This document shows, in pieces, positions 13,130 to 20,266 of a DNA stretch of 64,000 nt. Source of the stretch: Vicinamibacterales bacterium (GTDB taxonomy: Bacteria > Acidobacteriota > Vicinamibacteria > Vicinamibacterales > SCN-69-37). Both the position numbers and the translations under genes were made by a program. The stretch spans positions 494,368 through 558,367 of the forward strand of contig JAURFE010000001.1 in assembly GCA_030827135.1 (NCBI GenBank), given 5' to 3'. Within the stretch, counting starts at the first letter, position 1. Every line of letters starts with the position of its first letter. The notes beneath the pieces were generated by a model. That model did not search any database. It was not told the origin of the DNA and saw only the letters and a program-made list of their open reading frames with translations.

Positions 13130-13980
13130 ATCCACAACACATCCGCCGCCGTCGTGGCGAGATACAGCAGGCCGACCCAGCCGTTCAGGTCAAAGGCAAA
13201 CTTGACCTGCGAGAGATCATCGGCCCGCACGAGTGACTGTTCGTAGACCAGGAGCAGCGCCACCCCGGCGACACCCCCTGCGTAGATGGCCCCGAGGTCG
13301 GCCACGACACCGAGCACCGCCAGACACACGACCGTGACGACGTGCATGCCGCGCGAGATGCGCAGCGACCGGGGCACGCCGAACTTCACGGGCATCGACC
13401 GCAGGCCTTCGCGACGATCGACGTCGATGTCCTGACAGGCGTAGAGCACGTCGAAGCCGCCGACCCATGTGCCGATCGCCAGCCCCAGCAACCAGGGCTC
13501 CCAGCCGCCGCGTCCACCGGCAGCCAGCCACCCGCCGACCGGCGCCACGGCCATGGCGAGACCAAGAAACAACTGGGTGTACGACGTGAAACGCTTCGCC
13601 AGTGAGTACCAGAACACGATCGCGAGCGCGACCGGCGACAACGCAAAGCAGACCATGCCGAGCGGATACGTCGACGCGATAAACGCAAGCGACGACACGA
13701 CTACGAACGTGACCGCTTCGGTTCTCGACATCCGCCCTTGTGGAAGTTCCCGCATCGCGGTGCGTGGGTTGCGGGCATCAAAGGCCGCATCCGACAGGCG
13801 GTTGAATCCCATCGCGGCACTCCGGGCGGTCACCATGCAGGCGATGATCCAGAGCAGACGCGTCCAGTCCCACGGCACCACCTGCGCCGCCAGCAACGCG
13901 CCCACCAGCGCAAACGGCAATGCAAACACCGAATGACTGAAGCGGACAAACGACGCGTAGGTGCGAAGGCGGGCCATCAT
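13126..13980 (-). CDS. mqnP: UbiA-family prenyltransferase (MqnP-type)
   Basis: 284 residues with about eight hydrophobic segments. Two Asp-rich motifs, NRLSDAAFDARNPRT and YACQDIDVDRREGL, bind the Mg-diphosphate of the prenyl donor in UbiA enzymes. Within a cluster of mqn genes the acceptor is probably dihydroxy-naphthoate, as for MqnP, rather than 4-hydroxybenzoate. It is coupled at both ends by ATGA overlaps, to mqnX upstream and ubiX downstream. The specific acceptor is an inference from context. Confidence 0.88.
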   Translation of the reverse strand: MMARLRTYASFVRFSHSVFALPFALVGALLAAQVVPWDWTRLLWIIACMVTARSAAMGFNRLSDAAFDARNPRTAMRELPQGRMSRTEAVTFVVVSSLAFIASTYPLGMVCFALSPVALAIVFWYSLAKRFTSYTQLFLGLAMAVAPVGGWLAAGGRGGWEPWLLGLAIGTWVGGFDVLYACQDIDVDRREGLRSMPVKFGVPRSLRISRGMHVVTVVCLAVLGVVADLGAIYAGGVAGVALLLVYEQSLVRADDLSQVKFAFDLNGWVGLLYLATTAADVLWI

Positions 13981-15191
13981 GGGGCGGTGAGGTTCACGAG
14001 CGACACCGCCGAGGCCGGCACACCGCTCACCAGGTATTCTTCCACATCCCTCGCACGCGTCAGGCCGGCGGGCACCTGCACCGCGACAAACGTCGCCAGT
14101 TTTCCTGTGGAGATAGCGCCGTAGTCCCGCGTGTACCCCAGCGCAGCGGCGCCCACGCGTGTGGCGCTCTCAAGCAACCTGGCCGCATCGACCTCCGGCG
14201 CCAACCGGCGCATCGCCGCAAGTTCGTCGAACAGACTCAGGGAGTCGACGGACGTGAGGCTGTCCGTGCCAATGGCCACATCCACGCCTGACGCATAAAA
14301 CCGCGCGAGGGGTGGCACGCCGCCGCCCACCCACACGTTGCTGCGCGGACACGTGACCACGACCGCACCGGCGGCCCGCACGTCCTCAAGGTCATCCGTC
14401 GTGAGGTGCACCCCGTGTACAAGCAACGTGCCCGGCTGCAGATACCCGAGGTCCCGCAGATAACGCACCGGATGACTGCCCGGTGGCGTCCACGACCCCG
14501 TCCACACCCCGAGCGACTCGAGCATCTCGCGGATGGGCCCCTCCCCGGTGCGCAGAAATTCCATCTCTTCGTTCGACTCGGCCAGATGCACCGCCAGCGG
14601 AGCCGGCCCCTCATGGCGCGCCGCGATCTCGCGGAACAAGGCGGGCGACGTGGAATACGGGGCGTGGGCGACGACCGAACACGGGACATGACGCCGGGAG
14701 GCATCTCCCACTCGCGCGTGCGCGTCTCGCACCAGCGCAGCAGGGTCGAGCGGGTTGAATCCCAGAATTTCGTGGAACACGGTCGCGTCCAGACCGGCCG
14801 CGGCCAGTGCGGGCACAGATGCCAGGGAATTGGAGACGTCGCCGACGAGTACGGTGCCGGTCGATATCAGGCTCGCCACGGCGTCCTGGATCGCCGCGGT
14901 GATCTCGGCGTCGCCGCCGGCGGGCCCCGCGCGGCGGATGCCCATCATGGTCCGAATCCAGGCGTCCATTGACGGCTGCGGCGGCACACGCCCCGCCATC
15001 CAGCTCAATTCAAGATGGGTGTGAGCGTTGACCAGTCCCGGAAGAAGCACCACATCGCCGAGATCGCGTGTCTCGGCCGGGGCGGGCCCGCGGCCGACTG
15101 TGGCGACCCGGCCGTGGGCGGCCGACACCCACCCACCGGCGACCGGAGCGCTGCTGACCGGCAGCACCCAGCGCGCCGCAACTGCTGTCAT
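13977..15191 (-). CDS. mqnX: Amidohydrolase, probable aminodeoxyfutalosine deaminase
   Basis: About 404 residues. The metal-binding HTHLE motif is at residues 57-61, a second histidine region is VVAHAPYSTSPALF, then AVHLAESNEE, and the metal Asp lies in IGTDSLTSVDSL. This is the amidohydrolase superfamily that includes chlorohydrolases and the aminodeoxyfutalosine deaminase MqnX. Its place between mqnC and the prenyltransferase strongly suggests that it converts aminodeoxyfutalosine to futalosine. ATG 15191 is preferred; a TTG at 15200 that overlaps the mqnC stop would add three residues. Confidence 0.75.
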   Translation of the reverse strand: MTAVAARWVLPVSSAPVAGGWVSAAHGRVATVGRGPAPAETRDLGDVVLLPGLVNAHTHLELSWMAGRVPPQPSMDAWIRTMMGIRRAGPAGGDAEITAAIQDAVASLISTGTVLVGDVSNSLASVPALAAAGLDATVFHEILGFNPLDPAALVRDAHARVGDASRRHVPCSVVAHAPYSTSPALFREIAARHEGPAPLAVHLAESNEEMEFLRTGEGPIREMLESLGVWTGSWTPPGSHPVRYLRDLGYLQPGTLLVHGVHLTTDDLEDVRAAGAVVVTCPRSNVWVGGGVPPLARFYASGVDVAIGTDSLTSVDSLSLFDELAAMRRLAPEVDAARLLESATRVGAAALGYTRDYGAISTGKLATFVAVQVPAGLTRARDVEEYLVSGVPASAVSLVNLTAP

Positions 15192-15196
15192 CGGGG

Positions 15197-16396
15197 TCAA
15201 AGCCTCAGCCGTTTCGCGGCCGCCGACCGGGCCTCGTATGCACGGAGGTCCTCGGCCTCACCGGTCCGACCATCGTGACGCGCCACGGCCAGTTCCAGCA
15301 TGCGCGGCACCTCGCGCGCGCGGAACACCGGATCCCCAAGCACCTCGTAGTGCATGTTGCGGCGCTTCGCCACAAACCCGGCATTCTCGATGTTCCGCAC
15401 GACCTCGAACTCGTCCATGCAATATTCGGCGCCGGCGGCGCGCACGACGTTTTCCTCGATCATCACGGAGCCCATGTCGTTCGCCCCGTACGCCAGGCTC
15501 AGCTGTCCGACCTTGCCGCCCTGCGTCACCCACGACGCCTGCAGATTGTCGAAGTTGTCGAGGACGAGGCGCGAGAGCGCGAGCGTGCGGAGATACTCGA
15601 TGCCCGTCGCCTCCGTGCCGCCCAGTTCGGTGTGCTCCGGCTGGTAACTCCACGCAATGAACGCGGTAAACCCGCCGGTCTCATCCTGCTGCTCGCGCAG
15701 CCGGAAGAGATGTTCAAGCCGCTCGTCCACCGTTTCCACCGTGCCGTACATCATCGTCGCCGTCGTGCGCAGCCCGGCGCGATGGGCTTCACCCATCACA
15801 CGGAGCCACTCGTCGGACGTCGCCTTGTTGTAACAGTGGAGTTCCTGGCGCACACGATCCACAAGGATCTCCGCGCCGCCTCCGGGCACGCTGTCCAGAC
15901 CGGCGGCGATCAACCGATCGATCACCTCAGGGGTTGGCAGGCCGGACAACCGGGAGATGTGAATCACTTCCGGCGGCGACAACGCGTGCAGCCGGAACTC
16001 GGGATAGCGGCTCTTCACCTGCCGGAAGAGGTCTTCGTACCACGCCAGCGGCACGTCGGGATTGTGTCCGCCCTGCAGCAGCAGCTGCCCGCCACCCAGC
16101 GCGATCGTCTCCTCGATCTTCGTGAAGATCTCGTCGAAGCCCAGCGTGTAACCTTCGCCGGATCCCACGGGTCGATAAAACGCGCAGAATTTGCACCGCG
16201 CCACACACACGTTGGTGTAGTTCACGTTGCGGTCGATGATGTAGGTGACCACGCCCTCCGGATGCCGGAGCCGGCGCGCACGATCGGCAAGCCGGCCGAG
16301 CAACGAGGTCGGCGCCTCCAGGTAAAACTCCTTGGCTTCCGCGCGGGTCAGTCGCCCGCCGGCCACCAGCTTGTCTGCAATCGCCTGCACACTCAT
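15197..16396 (-). CDS. mqnC: Cyclic dehypoxanthinyl futalosine synthase (radical SAM)
   Basis: 399 residues. The radical-SAM cluster CVARCKFC (Cys64, Cys68, Cys71) sits in NVNYTNVCVARCKFCAFYR, as in MqnC. Further conserved blocks are GGGQLLLQGGHNPD, GLDSVPGGGAEIL and FTAFIAWSYQPEHT. It cyclises dehypoxanthine futalosine in the futalosine route. The start ATG 16396 overlaps the MFS stop as ATGA, so a longer open frame upstream is rejected. Confidence 0.94.
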   Translation of the reverse strand: MSVQAIADKLVAGGRLTRAEAKEFYLEAPTSLLGRLADRARRLRHPEGVVTYIIDRNVNYTNVCVARCKFCAFYRPVGSGEGYTLGFDEIFTKIEETIALGGGQLLLQGGHNPDVPLAWYEDLFRQVKSRYPEFRLHALSPPEVIHISRLSGLPTPEVIDRLIAAGLDSVPGGGAEILVDRVRQELHCYNKATSDEWLRVMGEAHRAGLRTTATMMYGTVETVDERLEHLFRLREQQDETGGFTAFIAWSYQPEHTELGGTEATGIEYLRTLALSRLVLDNFDNLQASWVTQGGKVGQLSLAYGANDMGSVMIEENVVRAAGAEYCMDEFEVVRNIENAGFVAKRRNMHYEVLGDPVFRAREVPRMLELAVARHDGRTGEAEDLRAYEARSAAAKRLRL

Positions 16397-17607
16397 GACG
16401 TCGGTTCCATGGTAACCCGCCACGCGATGCCCCACGCCACCGTGAGCAGCACGGCGGCCAGCAGGAACGGCGCACCCGGCAGGTGGCGGCCGGCGTGGGG
16501 CCCGATGAACGACGCGAAGGTCCACGTGAACAGGCCAGGTCCCACGATGCCTGTCAGCCCCATGAAACTGGCGTTGATGCCCTGCAACTGTCCCTGGTCA
16601 GACATCGCCACCCGGCGGGTCATGAGGCCCTGCAACGACGGATTAAACAGCCCCATCAGCCCGAAGACCGGCAGTGCCATCCAGAGACCAGCGCCGGTGT
16701 CGGCCAGGCCAAAGAGCGCGTACCCGGCGATGCCCCCAGCCAGGCCGGTCAGCAACGTCCGCCGCTCCCCAAATCGCGCCACCAGGGGCCGCACGAGGCC
16801 GCCCTGCACGATGATGCTGATGACGCCGACCGCGGCCAGGGACAATCCCGTCTCGCGGGCATTCCAACCGTAGCGATAGCCGACGTACAGCACGAACACA
16901 CTCGCCAGCACGTGATGCGCCAGGTGATACAACACGCCGATACTTGCCAAACCGGTCAGGCCTCGATGACGCCGCAATAACTGCATGGAGCCCAGGGGAT
17001 TGGCGCGCAGCCACGAAAACGGCTTCCGGCGATCCGCCGGCAGCGACTCCGGCAGCACGAAATACCCATACGCGGCATTCACCAGAGACAGGCTGCCTGC
17101 AACCCAGAACGGCAGACGAGGGTCGACCGTCCCGAGTACGCCGCCGATGGCCGGTCCAAGCACAAACCCCACACCAAACGCCGCGCCGATCATGCCGAAT
17201 CCGGCCGCACGCTTCTCTACCGGCGTCACGTCCGCGATGTAGGCGCCGGCTGTGGAAAAGCTCGCGGCCGTGATGCCCGACAGAATTCGTCCGAGGAACA
17301 ACCACGCGAGCGTCGGCGCCAGCGCCATGAGGATGTAGTCCAGCCCAAGACCCAGGCAGGACGTCAGAATCACCGGGCGGCGGCCGAACCGATCGGACAA
17401 CGAGCCAAGAATCGGCGCAAACACAAACTGCATCAGCGCCCACACCGTGCCGAACAACCCGAACATCGTGGCTGCACGCGCAGTGTCGCCGCCCATGAAC
17501 TCCTCGACCAGCGCCGGCAGCACCGGAATGATGATCCCGAGCGCGAGGATGTCGAGGACAACGGTGATGAAGATGAACACCACCGCGGCGCGGCGGGGTG
17601 CGGTCAC
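16393..17607 (-). CDS. MFS transporter, TetA-like (12-TM)
   Basis: 404 residues, twelve hydrophobic segments, with the inter-helix 2-3 motif GSLSDRFGRRPVIL typical of drug:proton antiporters and a second, weaker copy (RPLVARFGERRTLL) between helices 8 and 9. The opening VVFIFITVVLDILALGIIIPVLP resembles the tetracycline/multidrug DHA1 exporters. It lies inside the menaquinone operon, coupled to mqnA by GTGA and to mqnC by ATGA. It may export a pathway intermediate or simply be carried along; the substrate is unknown. Confidence 0.85.
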   Translation of the reverse strand: MTAPRRAAVVFIFITVVLDILALGIIIPVLPALVEEFMGGDTARAATMFGLFGTVWALMQFVFAPILGSLSDRFGRRPVILTSCLGLGLDYILMALAPTLAWLFLGRILSGITAASFSTAGAYIADVTPVEKRAAGFGMIGAAFGVGFVLGPAIGGVLGTVDPRLPFWVAGSLSLVNAAYGYFVLPESLPADRRKPFSWLRANPLGSMQLLRRHRGLTGLASIGVLYHLAHHVLASVFVLYVGYRYGWNARETGLSLAAVGVISIIVQGGLVRPLVARFGERRTLLTGLAGGIAGYALFGLADTGAGLWMALPVFGLMGLFNPSLQGLMTRRVAMSDQGQLQGINASFMGLTGIVGPGLFTWTFASFIGPHAGRHLPGAPFLLAAVLLTVAWGIAWRVTMEPTS

Positions 17608-18440
17608 GATCGCGGCTCCGCCGCGAAGAAGGCCGGTGTCGCCGGCGCGCTCACGACGCCGACCGCGGCGGCCTCCTGGAAGTACGCGGCCAGGCCCTCG
17701 AGCATCCGGGGCGTCAGGCCGAACTGGATGTTCTCCCGCAGATACCTGCGGGCGAGCGGCATCCACGCCGGGGTGTGCGCCACATAGGCATCGGCGTGTG
17801 CGTCAGAGGCCACGACGCCCGCATCCCGCGTCGCCTGCAGGCGGAGCACGGTCTCGGGTGTGGCGGCGCCGGGCCGCCCGGCCCAGAACGCCCAGACAAA
17901 CGGCAGTCCGGTCATCTCGGTCCACAGGGCGCCGAGATCAATCTTCTCAACCGGCGCCCCCAGGGCGGCCTCAACGGCCGGACGGTCGGCAAACAACGCC
18001 GGATCCCCGATGACCAGTGCGGCATCATGCGCCCGCAGCATCGCCGACAGATCCGGCGCGTGTCGGGCAAACGTCGGCGTAATGCCGAAGCGGCGCCGGC
18101 ACATGATGCGCGTCAGCGCCACTGACGTCCGCGAGCTGGTGTCGAGCGCGATTGACCGCACCTCACGCATCGGACGCTTCGTGAAGATGGCCACCGAGGC
18201 GACCGGCCCCTCGGACGCGATGGACACGCCGGGGACGACCAGATCGGTCGGGCGATCGTGGTACGCGATGGTGGGAATGAGCCCGAGATCGATCTCGCCG
18301 GCGTCAAGCAACGTCGCACAGTGCGCAGGCGGATCAAAGCGCACGGAGAAGTACGCGTCCGCCGCGCCACCCAGCCCGGCGATCAGCGGCCGGGCATTGA
18401 GGTAATTCACCGACCCGAGTCTGACGCGCCGGCTCGTCAC
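17604..18440 (-). CDS. mqnA: Chorismate dehydratase
   Basis: 278 residues. RLGSVNYLNARPLIAGL at the N-terminus, GEIDLGLIPTIAYHD and VIGDPAL are the MqnA family blocks. The fold is that of a periplasmic-binding protein, but no signal peptide is present, so it is cytoplasmic. It removes water from chorismate to give 3-enolpyruvyl-benzoate, the first futalosine-pathway step. The start is GTG 18440, overlapping the MqnE-like gene's stop as GTGA. Confidence 0.93.
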   Translation of the reverse strand: MTSRRVRLGSVNYLNARPLIAGLGGAADAYFSVRFDPPAHCATLLDAGEIDLGLIPTIAYHDRPTDLVVPGVSIASEGPVASVAIFTKRPMREVRSIALDTSSRTSVALTRIMCRRRFGITPTFARHAPDLSAMLRAHDAALVIGDPALFADRPAVEAALGAPVEKIDLGALWTEMTGLPFVWAFWAGRPGAATPETVLRLQATRDAGVVASDAHADAYVAHTPAWMPLARRYLRENIQFGLTPRMLEGLAAYFQEAAAVGVVSAPATPAFFAAEPRS

Positions 18441-19315
18441 CGCACCAGCTCGAACCGGGCATCCCGCGCAACCGGGACCGCAAACGCCGCAGCAATCTGG
18501 CGCTCAATGTCCTGACGCGGACTCCGCCGGACGCCCAGCGCCAGCGTGTCGATCGCCGGCACGTTGTCGAGGTCATCGACGCCATACGCTATCGCGACCT
18601 GTGCGAGCTTCGGACCGTACACCGCCCAATCGACCTGGATGGACGGCACGTTCACACAGACCAGCCGCGCCACCGCCATCGTCCGCACATCGTCATACCC
18701 CGTGGACGGCGTGTCGGCCTGATCGATGATCGGCAGCGGCGCAAAGGTCTTGAGCGTGCCGACCTCCTGCTGGAGGGCGGCCACACGCTCGATCAGCGCC
18801 AGCCGCGTCTCCACCGCCGGCGCCTGCTCGATGACGACGCGCCAGACGGGCAGGCCGCCGTGTGCAATCGCCCGGACGAGTTCGGCGGGGTCTTCAACGC
18901 GATCGATGGGAAGCGAAGCGACCGCCGTCAGACCTGCCGCCTGCAACAACGCTGCGCCTTCCGCGAGCGCCAGATGGTCCCCGCCGGCCAGATCGAGAAG
19001 ATCGGCGATCGAAAATCCCGTCACCGGGACGTGGCCGGCTGCAGCCACCACCGCCCGCGTCCAGGCCGCGGCGGCTTCGAACGATGCCGGCCGGCCTTCG
19101 AGGCGCACTTCGCGGGCGGCCCCGAGTGTCGCCGGGACGCCTTCGGTCACCGTGAGCACCTGGCCGTAGGTCACGCGCTCGCCGTGATGGGCCTTCCTCG
19201 CCGTCTCGGCCAGCGTGCCGACACTGACAAGATCCGTGCAACCGAGCACGCGCAGGGCTTCGGCGTGCGTCAGGGCTTCACGGGCGGTGACTTTGGGTTC
19301 GAGGTCGGTCAACAT
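18437..19315 (-). CDS. MqnE-like protein lacking the radical-SAM cysteine motif
   Basis: 292 residues. The N-terminus (LRVLGCTDLVSVGTLAETARKAHHGERVTY) and the C-terminal half (EVGTLKTFAPLP, then YDDVRTMAVARLVCVNVPS and GPKLAQVAIAYGVDDLDNV) align by eye with aminodeoxyfutalosine synthase MqnE. The stretch that should carry the CxxxCxxC cluster after HGERVTY (about residues 50-75) has no cysteine at all, and the protein has only two cysteines in total. It is about 80 residues shorter than MqnE. It cannot bind a canonical 4Fe-4S cluster, yet its frame is intact and coupled to mqnA. A true mqnE is not in the window. Possible roles: scaffold, regulator or partner of MqnC/MqnE, or a decaying copy. 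Confidence 0.75.
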   Translation of the reverse strand: MLTDLEPKVTAREALTHAEALRVLGCTDLVSVGTLAETARKAHHGERVTYGQVLTVTEGVPATLGAAREVRLEGRPASFEAAAAWTRAVVAAAGHVPVTGFSIADLLDLAGGDHLALAEGAALLQAAGLTAVASLPIDRVEDPAELVRAIAHGGLPVWRVVIEQAPAVETRLALIERVAALQQEVGTLKTFAPLPIIDQADTPSTGYDDVRTMAVARLVCVNVPSIQVDWAVYGPKLAQVAIAYGVDDLDNVPAIDTLALGVRRSPRQDIERQIAAAFAVPVARDARFELVR

Positions 19316-19318
19316 TTC

Positions 19319-20266
19319 TTATCGCGCTCCATTTTCGTTCTCTTCAATCGCTTCAGCGACGCGCGTCGCAAGCTGCAGCGCGCGATAGCCGTCGCGGCCG
19401 GTGACGCGCGGGGCCCGGCCCGTGCGAACGGCATCAACAAAATCCTGCAACTCGCGGCCCAGGGGTTCGCCCTTTTCGACAGGCACCGGGCCGCCTTCAA
19501 TCTTCGGACGTCCTTCTGGCTGCGGCTCAACCCGCCACACGTCGAGTTCCTGATCTCCGTAATCCACAGACACGTACATGTGCGGCTGGAAGAACCGGAC
19601 CTTCCGCACCTTGTCGCGGCTGATCCGGCTCGCCGTCAGGTTGACCGTGCAGCCGGACGCCAGCTTCAGGCGCGCGTTCGCGATATCCACCTTCGGCGAC
19701 AACACCGGCACACCAACAGCCTCCACGCTCACGACCTCCGACGGGTCGATCGCCAGAATGATGTCGAGGTCGTGAATCATCACATCGAAGACGACATCGA
19801 TATCGAGGCTGCGCTCAGGGAAGCCACTCAGCCGATGGACTTCGATAAAGCGTGGATGTGTGACAAGCGGAATGGCGGCGGACACGGCCGGATTAAACCG
19901 CTCGGTGTGGCCGACCGCCAGCACGCGGCCCGCGCGCTCGGCCAGCGCGATCAAAGCCTCCGCCTCCGCCAGCGTCGTCGTCATCGGCTTCTCGACCAGG
20001 ACGTGGACGCCGGCCTCGAGGAACTCGCGGGCCACGGTCACGTGATCAACTGTCGGCACGGCGATGCTCACCGCGTCGACCTGTCCGATCAGCGCCCGGT
20101 AGTCGGTGAAGACCGTCGCGCCGGTCGTCGACGCTGCGGCCTGCGCGCGCTCCTCCGACAGGTCCGAAACGGCCACCAGGCGAGCGCCGGAAGCGCCGGC
20201 CAGCAGACGTGCATGATGCCGGCCAAGATGTCCAACACCCACCACGCCCACCCGAACGTCACTCAT
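19319..20266 (-). CDS. Gfo/Idh/MocA-family oxidoreductase
   Basis: 315 residues. N-terminal Rossmann fold [17 protein letters not shown], then the family motif [14 protein letters not shown] (residues about 92-105) and a C-terminal sugar-binding domain. It sits 3 bp after lpxI's stop region with an ATGA overlap, inside a lipid A gene block. In some bacteria a Gfo/Idh enzyme next to lpxA (GnnA) oxidises UDP-GlcNAc at C3 on the way to an amide-linked lipid A. The partner aminotransferase GnnB is not visible here, so that role is only a possibility. Confidence 0.8.

Follow-up and report, generated by a model that had tools for sequence, protein, structure and literature searches.

The window analysed here, a 64,000-nucleotide stretch of Vicinamibacterales DNA, carries in its menaquinone operon an intact gene for an MqnE-derived protein that has lost the iron-sulfur cluster motif. 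That this protein is a conserved pseudo-enzyme is well supported: its catalytic residues are lost, it is under selection, and an active relative is encoded in the same genome. We infer its partner and mechanism from evolutionary rates and gene coupling, and we give about even chances to the reading that the cluster-less MqnE is a retained non-catalytic subunit binding MqnA.

An MqnE-derived protein without a cluster

The gene occupies positions 18437..19315 on the minus strand and encodes a protein of 292 aa. Its 292-codon frame runs uninterrupted from an ATG start at 19315 to a TGA stop at 18439-18437, and a GGAG, probably its ribosome-binding site, can be read directly at 19327..19330 (minus strand), 11 nt ahead of the ATG. 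Its stop and the GTG start of mqnA (at 18440) overlap within the four bases GTGA (18437..18440, minus strand), which bears out the original prediction of an intact frame coupled to mqnA. The estimate that the protein is about 80 residues shorter than MqnE was also fair (292 aa vs 365-398 aa).

On the minus strand, the gene order is lpxA, lpxI, a Gfo/Idh oxidoreductase, the cluster-less gene, mqnA, an MFS transporter, mqnC and an amidohydrolase. The oxidoreductase (UDP-GlcNAc 3-dehydrogenase-like, 19319..20266), which is retained where mqn genes have been lost, lies immediately upstream, with its stop 3 nt ahead of the ATG of the cluster-less gene. mqnA (17604..18440) encodes chorismate dehydratase, as shown by its matches to PF02621 (155 bits) and to the S. 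coelicolor chorismate dehydratase 7ahr (E 2e-31). It is followed by the MFS transporter gene (16393-17766) and by mqnC (15197..16525, probable start 16396), which encodes cyclic dehypoxanthinyl futalosine synthase with the motif CVARCKFC present and scores 473 bits with TIGR03699, above the cut-off. The amidohydrolase (13977..15200) is a probable aminofutalosine deaminase of the MqnX type, for which the best NCBIfam model was NF006269 (aminofutalosine deaminase family; 143 bits, under the cut-off). The original prediction had placed the real mqnE elsewhere in the genome; indeed, a genome search found a complete MqnE with CVATCLFC (L035:5589-6785), ~760 kb from the window gene. The host genome also encodes MqnD and MqnB, the latter above its cut-off, along with MqnA, MqnC and the MqnX-like deaminase candidate, and none of the early futalosine steps is missing.

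Among family models, TIGR03700 (MqnE) ranked first for the window protein (80.9 bits, E 8e-23), ahead of TIGR03699 (MqnC; 58.5 bits), with both scores far below the respective cut-offs (434.55, curated, and 428.1). A profile built from 30 orthologues matched P. heparinus MqnE at residues 48-103 (c-Evalue 1e-6) and 261-395 (7e-17), and CxxxCxxC was absent in all 30 orthologues examined, in agreement with the original description of a protein that is MqnE-like at both ends and lacks the cluster cysteines. The alignment gap in the cluster-less family corresponds exactly to the cluster loop and next helix of MqnE; in the window protein, ~40 MqnE residues are cut to ~7 at this site (residues 60-66, 19118..19138, minus strand). 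The N-terminal part before it (residues 1-57, 19145..19315, minus strand), which matches MqnE 48-103, forms the N-terminal helices and first strand of an MqnE-like barrel in the model described below. The conserved C-terminal region (residues 189-292, 18440..18751, minus strand) is CofH_C-like and carries P-x-TGYDDV, IQVDW, YGPKLAQVA, GADDxD and GxRR; PF19288 (CofH_C) gave 24.4 bits for the window protein (cut-off 27) and matched all 30 orthologues, with E up to 0.01.

Motifs of the cluster-less family were compared with those of 28 MqnE and 27 MqnC sequences. This showed that 16 of the 59 positions common to MqnE and MqnC are retained, and that PGGGAE, the AG loop, GxHP after strand 2 and TMxYG are gapped or replaced. 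Residues that are diagnostic for MqnE versus MqnC were mildly informative (7 MqnE-like, 4 MqnC-like, 27 neither), and the cluster-less protein has a higher evolutionary rate than either enzyme. The family has also gained invariant polar residues (Y207, D209, D229, R263 and R264), as would be seen for a new active site, and in one reading the barrel would catalyse a new, non-radical reaction that belongs to menaquinone synthesis or lies close to it, using the conserved C-terminal residues. We consider this unlikely, however, given that known genes in the host genome already cover all early futalosine steps and that TGxDD was inherited from MqnE and is not new. Furthermore, the barrel-mouth motifs are gone and most of the conservation is concentrated in the C-terminal third, where W, Q, G, D and R landmarks are retained.

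The fold was modelled from an alignment that included MqnC rows (pLDDT 72.5, pTM 0.72), and the nearest structure to this model was MqnE 6xig (Z 19.7), followed by biotin synthase (Z 17.0). A control model without MqnC rows (two-row alignment) was poor (pLDDT 49), and its top match was still MqnE (E 0.016). An MqnE-like barrel is thus the likely fold, as judged from these models. Substrate could still fit such a cluster-less barrel, and the gene is translationally coupled, as might suit an operon sensor or regulator that takes up a pathway intermediate as its ligand and carries out no chemistry on it. Against this, domain searches revealed no added regulatory domain and there is no known partner, which makes a sensor decidedly unlikely.

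Since every family and fold search pointed to MqnE, MqnC or CofH, an unrelated family can be rejected, and by its sequence the protein is MqnE-derived. It resembles MqnE (TIGR03700; 6xi9, 6xig) in ancestry, N-terminal helices, C-terminal region, predicted barrel and the slot beside mqnA that MqnE occupies in class-mates. Unlike MqnE, it lacks CxxxCxxC, PGGGAE and other cofactor-site motifs, and it coexists with a complete MqnE. With MqnC and CofH, members of the same CofH family, it shares the CofH_C-like C-terminal region, but it scores lower with them than with MqnE and has no cluster motif. The cluster is what defines a radical-SAM enzyme. We infer that radical-SAM chemistry is beyond this protein, and aminofutalosine synthase activity would not be expected of a protein that has no cluster.

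Conservation together with the futalosine pathway

The survey comprised 193 genomes of the class, 162 from the host's order and 31 from class members outside it. An intact orthologue (E 2e-46 or better) was present in 137 of the 162 order genomes, spread over 14 families, and in none of the 31 others; a phylum-wide sample of Acidobacteriota likewise yielded no cluster-less orthologue outside the order. The occurrence survey covers Acidobacteriota, and a locus search with the single window protein returned one near relative. Such conservation, with an intact frame in 137 genomes, is far beyond chance. Between the window and an 89%-identical relative, dN/dS was 0.094 for the cluster-less gene, 0.090 for mqnA and 0.067 for mqnC, and none of the orthologues listed from the 14 families had an internal stop. 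On these results, we reject a pseudogene. The lost catalytic centre and an evolution faster than that of MqnE would fit a decaying remnant of the replaced mqnE, but the low dN/dS, the lack of internal stops and the strict co-retention with the pathway make this very improbable. The gene shows no decay, and conservation across relatives favours the structural or regulatory pseudo-enzyme that had originally been proposed.

The 25 order genomes without an orthologue comprise 10 without any MqnE or MqnC match and 15 with MqnE and/or MqnC only. In all four genomes that have MqnC but no orthologue (G049, G329, G361 and G424), the contig ends at or before the gene, so that none of the mqnC-bearing genomes shows a genuine absence; the G424 contig still carries the 3' end of the cluster-less gene. 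In two of the MqnE-only genomes (G340 and G372), the neighbouring Gfo is absent as well, and therefore the whole lpx-mqn locus is missing from their assemblies.

Because the gene sits between the Gfo/LpxI/LpxA block and mqnA, it might belong to the upstream lipid A operon and not to menaquinone synthesis. However, family f11 and genome G039 retain lpxA-lpxI-Gfo in order, but the cluster-less gene, mqnA and mqnC are all absent from this locus, and neither MqnE nor MqnC was found anywhere in these genomes, while G048 and G057, from the same genus as G039, carry the cluster-less gene. Two lineages have therefore lost the gene along with the futalosine genes. A function in the lipid A operon is largely refuted by these genomes, and we assign it next to no probability. 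MenB was found above its cut-off in two f11 genomes (G033 and G043; L192 and L194), and these probably now make menaquinone by the classical pathway.

mqnA follows the cluster-less gene in all but one of the loci read with enough downstream sequence. Most loci read show a 4-base overlap with mqnA, and most relatives retain GTGA or something close to it. In G054 (L030), the overlap of the cluster-less gene is with mqnC (ATGA) and not with mqnA. No fusion of the cluster-less gene to a neighbour was found among the retrieved loci. Separately, the single-contig genome G028 encodes MqnA and MqnC in one uninterrupted 907-codon frame (L055:4357-7077, minus strand), likely a natural MqnA-MqnC fusion.

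Probable loss of the cluster in place and a parallel in MqnC

The original prediction regarded the gene as an MqnE paralogue. Its derivation from MqnE stands, but hhalign scores, motifs and the slot in class-mates indicate that it is probably no duplicate of the working MqnE. The identical slot, immediately ahead of mqnA and mqnC, is occupied by a cysteine-bearing mqnE in f16, class-mates that lie outside the order. By hhalign, the cluster-less family scored 194 and 180 against the in-operon MqnE of class-mates and 163 against the MqnE of another family, compared with 130 against its own stand-alone MqnE and 123 against its own MqnC. Furthermore, TG[FY][DE]D and GP[KR]LAQV are common to the cluster-less family and f16 MqnE and are not found in the stand-alone MqnE of the order. 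Because the cluster-less family is more like the in-operon MqnE of class-mates than the MqnE of its own genome, the native in-operon mqnE probably lost its cluster in place, with a second, different mqnE taking catalysis over. The tree leaves the origin of the cluster-less clade open because the branch is long: in the AU test, neither placement was rejected (p 0.10 with stand-alone MqnE, 0.16 with class-mate MqnE). The stand-alone MqnE of the host's order (L035:5589-6785, relatives L103-L120) lacks the TGxDD and GP[KR]LAQV of other acidobacterial MqnE, and the absence of these motifs suggests that it may be an acquisition from another source.

A parallel was observed in family f23 of the same phylum, in which native MqnC lacks exactly the same loop in G105, G147, G156, G164, G188, G195, G202 and G209, and is cluster-less in G255 and G276 as well. 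These cluster-less genes lie at the native MqnC locus (L086:4719-5627 and L088:4360-5310; L086-L089 and L225-L232). Every cluster-less f23 genome checked has a second, cysteine-bearing MqnC elsewhere, and no second MqnC was found in G116, G180 and G238, three genomes with an intact native MqnC. In the tree, the cluster-less forms nest within the f23 MqnC clade, and close pairs gave dN/dS values of 0.08-0.10. The two cases thus have in common the precise loss of the loop from a native gene, a second complete enzyme elsewhere and purifying selection. In contrast to the window protein, the f23 forms are derived from MqnC, occur sporadically within one family and are not beside mqnA in annotated loci. 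Two independent in-place cluster losses in the same pathway, with the protein retained, are hard to explain by decay. The open PMC literature searched contained no description of such a protein, be it a cluster-less MqnE or MqnC.

That the protein has stayed in the menaquinone operon across an order in which its cluster was lost implies that these enzymes have a role independent of the cluster, with complex formation or channelling of 3-enolpyruvylbenzoate as candidates. As MqnC shows a parallel loss, the pattern is a repeated one and so directly testable. As a tentative possibility, the futalosine enzymes of Acidobacteriota may form a multi-enzyme complex in which the radical-SAM bodies are structurally needed apart from catalysis, and the cluster-free native subunit would be a scaffold. 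A second copy would take the chemistry and the native subunit would drop its cluster and have to stay, independently in one order (MqnE) and in another family (MqnC). For annotation, it follows that an MqnE-like gene beside mqnA is not necessarily the synthase.

Partner and role of the cluster-less protein

Strict conservation along with the pathway makes a non-catalytic job of the protein itself probable. With LpxA, LpxI and Gfo as controls, the evolutionary rate of the cluster-less gene covaried with that of MqnA (partial r 0.605, p 0.0005), whereas the same controls gave no clear signal for MqnC (0.14) or MqnE (0.17). The MqnA signal survived the addition of MqnC as a control and the removal of any one of five families (0.53-0.68), and its full range was a partial r of 0.46-0.68 (p <= 0.003). 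The adjacent control pair Gfo-LpxI also covaries (0.43), and in a 17-genome subset the cluster-less gene covaried with MqnE (0.30, p 0.024). Evolutionary rates thus weakly favour MqnA, not MqnC, as the partner, and the cluster-less gene is translationally coupled to mqnA in almost every locus, which points to MqnA as well.

In the favoured reading of a non-catalytic subunit, a second complete mqnE would have taken over aminofutalosine synthesis, and the native MqnE, still at its original position, would then have shed the [4Fe-4S] loop and the motifs for SAM binding and remained in the futalosine pathway. There it would bind a pathway protein, most likely MqnA, and activate or stabilise it. 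Alternatively, it may take the MqnA product 3-enolpyruvylbenzoate and pass it to the working MqnE.

Two papers describe trypanosome AdoMetDC and deoxyhypusine synthase as depending on catalytically dead paralogues (PMC5201418, PMC3663545), a precedent for a prozyme-like role in which a dead relative of an enzyme in the same cell, here the cluster-less protein, would form a heterodimer with the stand-alone MqnE (or MqnC) and activate or stabilise this radical-SAM enzyme. Retention of the cluster-less gene wherever MqnE and MqnC are retained is consistent with such a role. However, rate covariation with MqnE or MqnC was weak or absent in the larger sets, and the gene is coupled to mqnA with mqnE ~760 kb away, so that we consider heterodimer formation somewhat unlikely. 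As with the trypanosome prozymes, an inactive relative is conserved alongside an active enzyme from the same pathway. The folds, in contrast, are unrelated, the complex with the paralogue, shown there, is hypothetical here, and the likeliest partner of the cluster-less MqnE is MqnA, a different enzyme.

The gene block of the window recurs at 83-96% protein identity in L034 (VFZF01000008.1), which is labelled Acidimicrobiia, a label that looks wrong. The MFS gene between mqnA and mqnC is present in the window and in L034, and was not found there in the annotated loci of other families.
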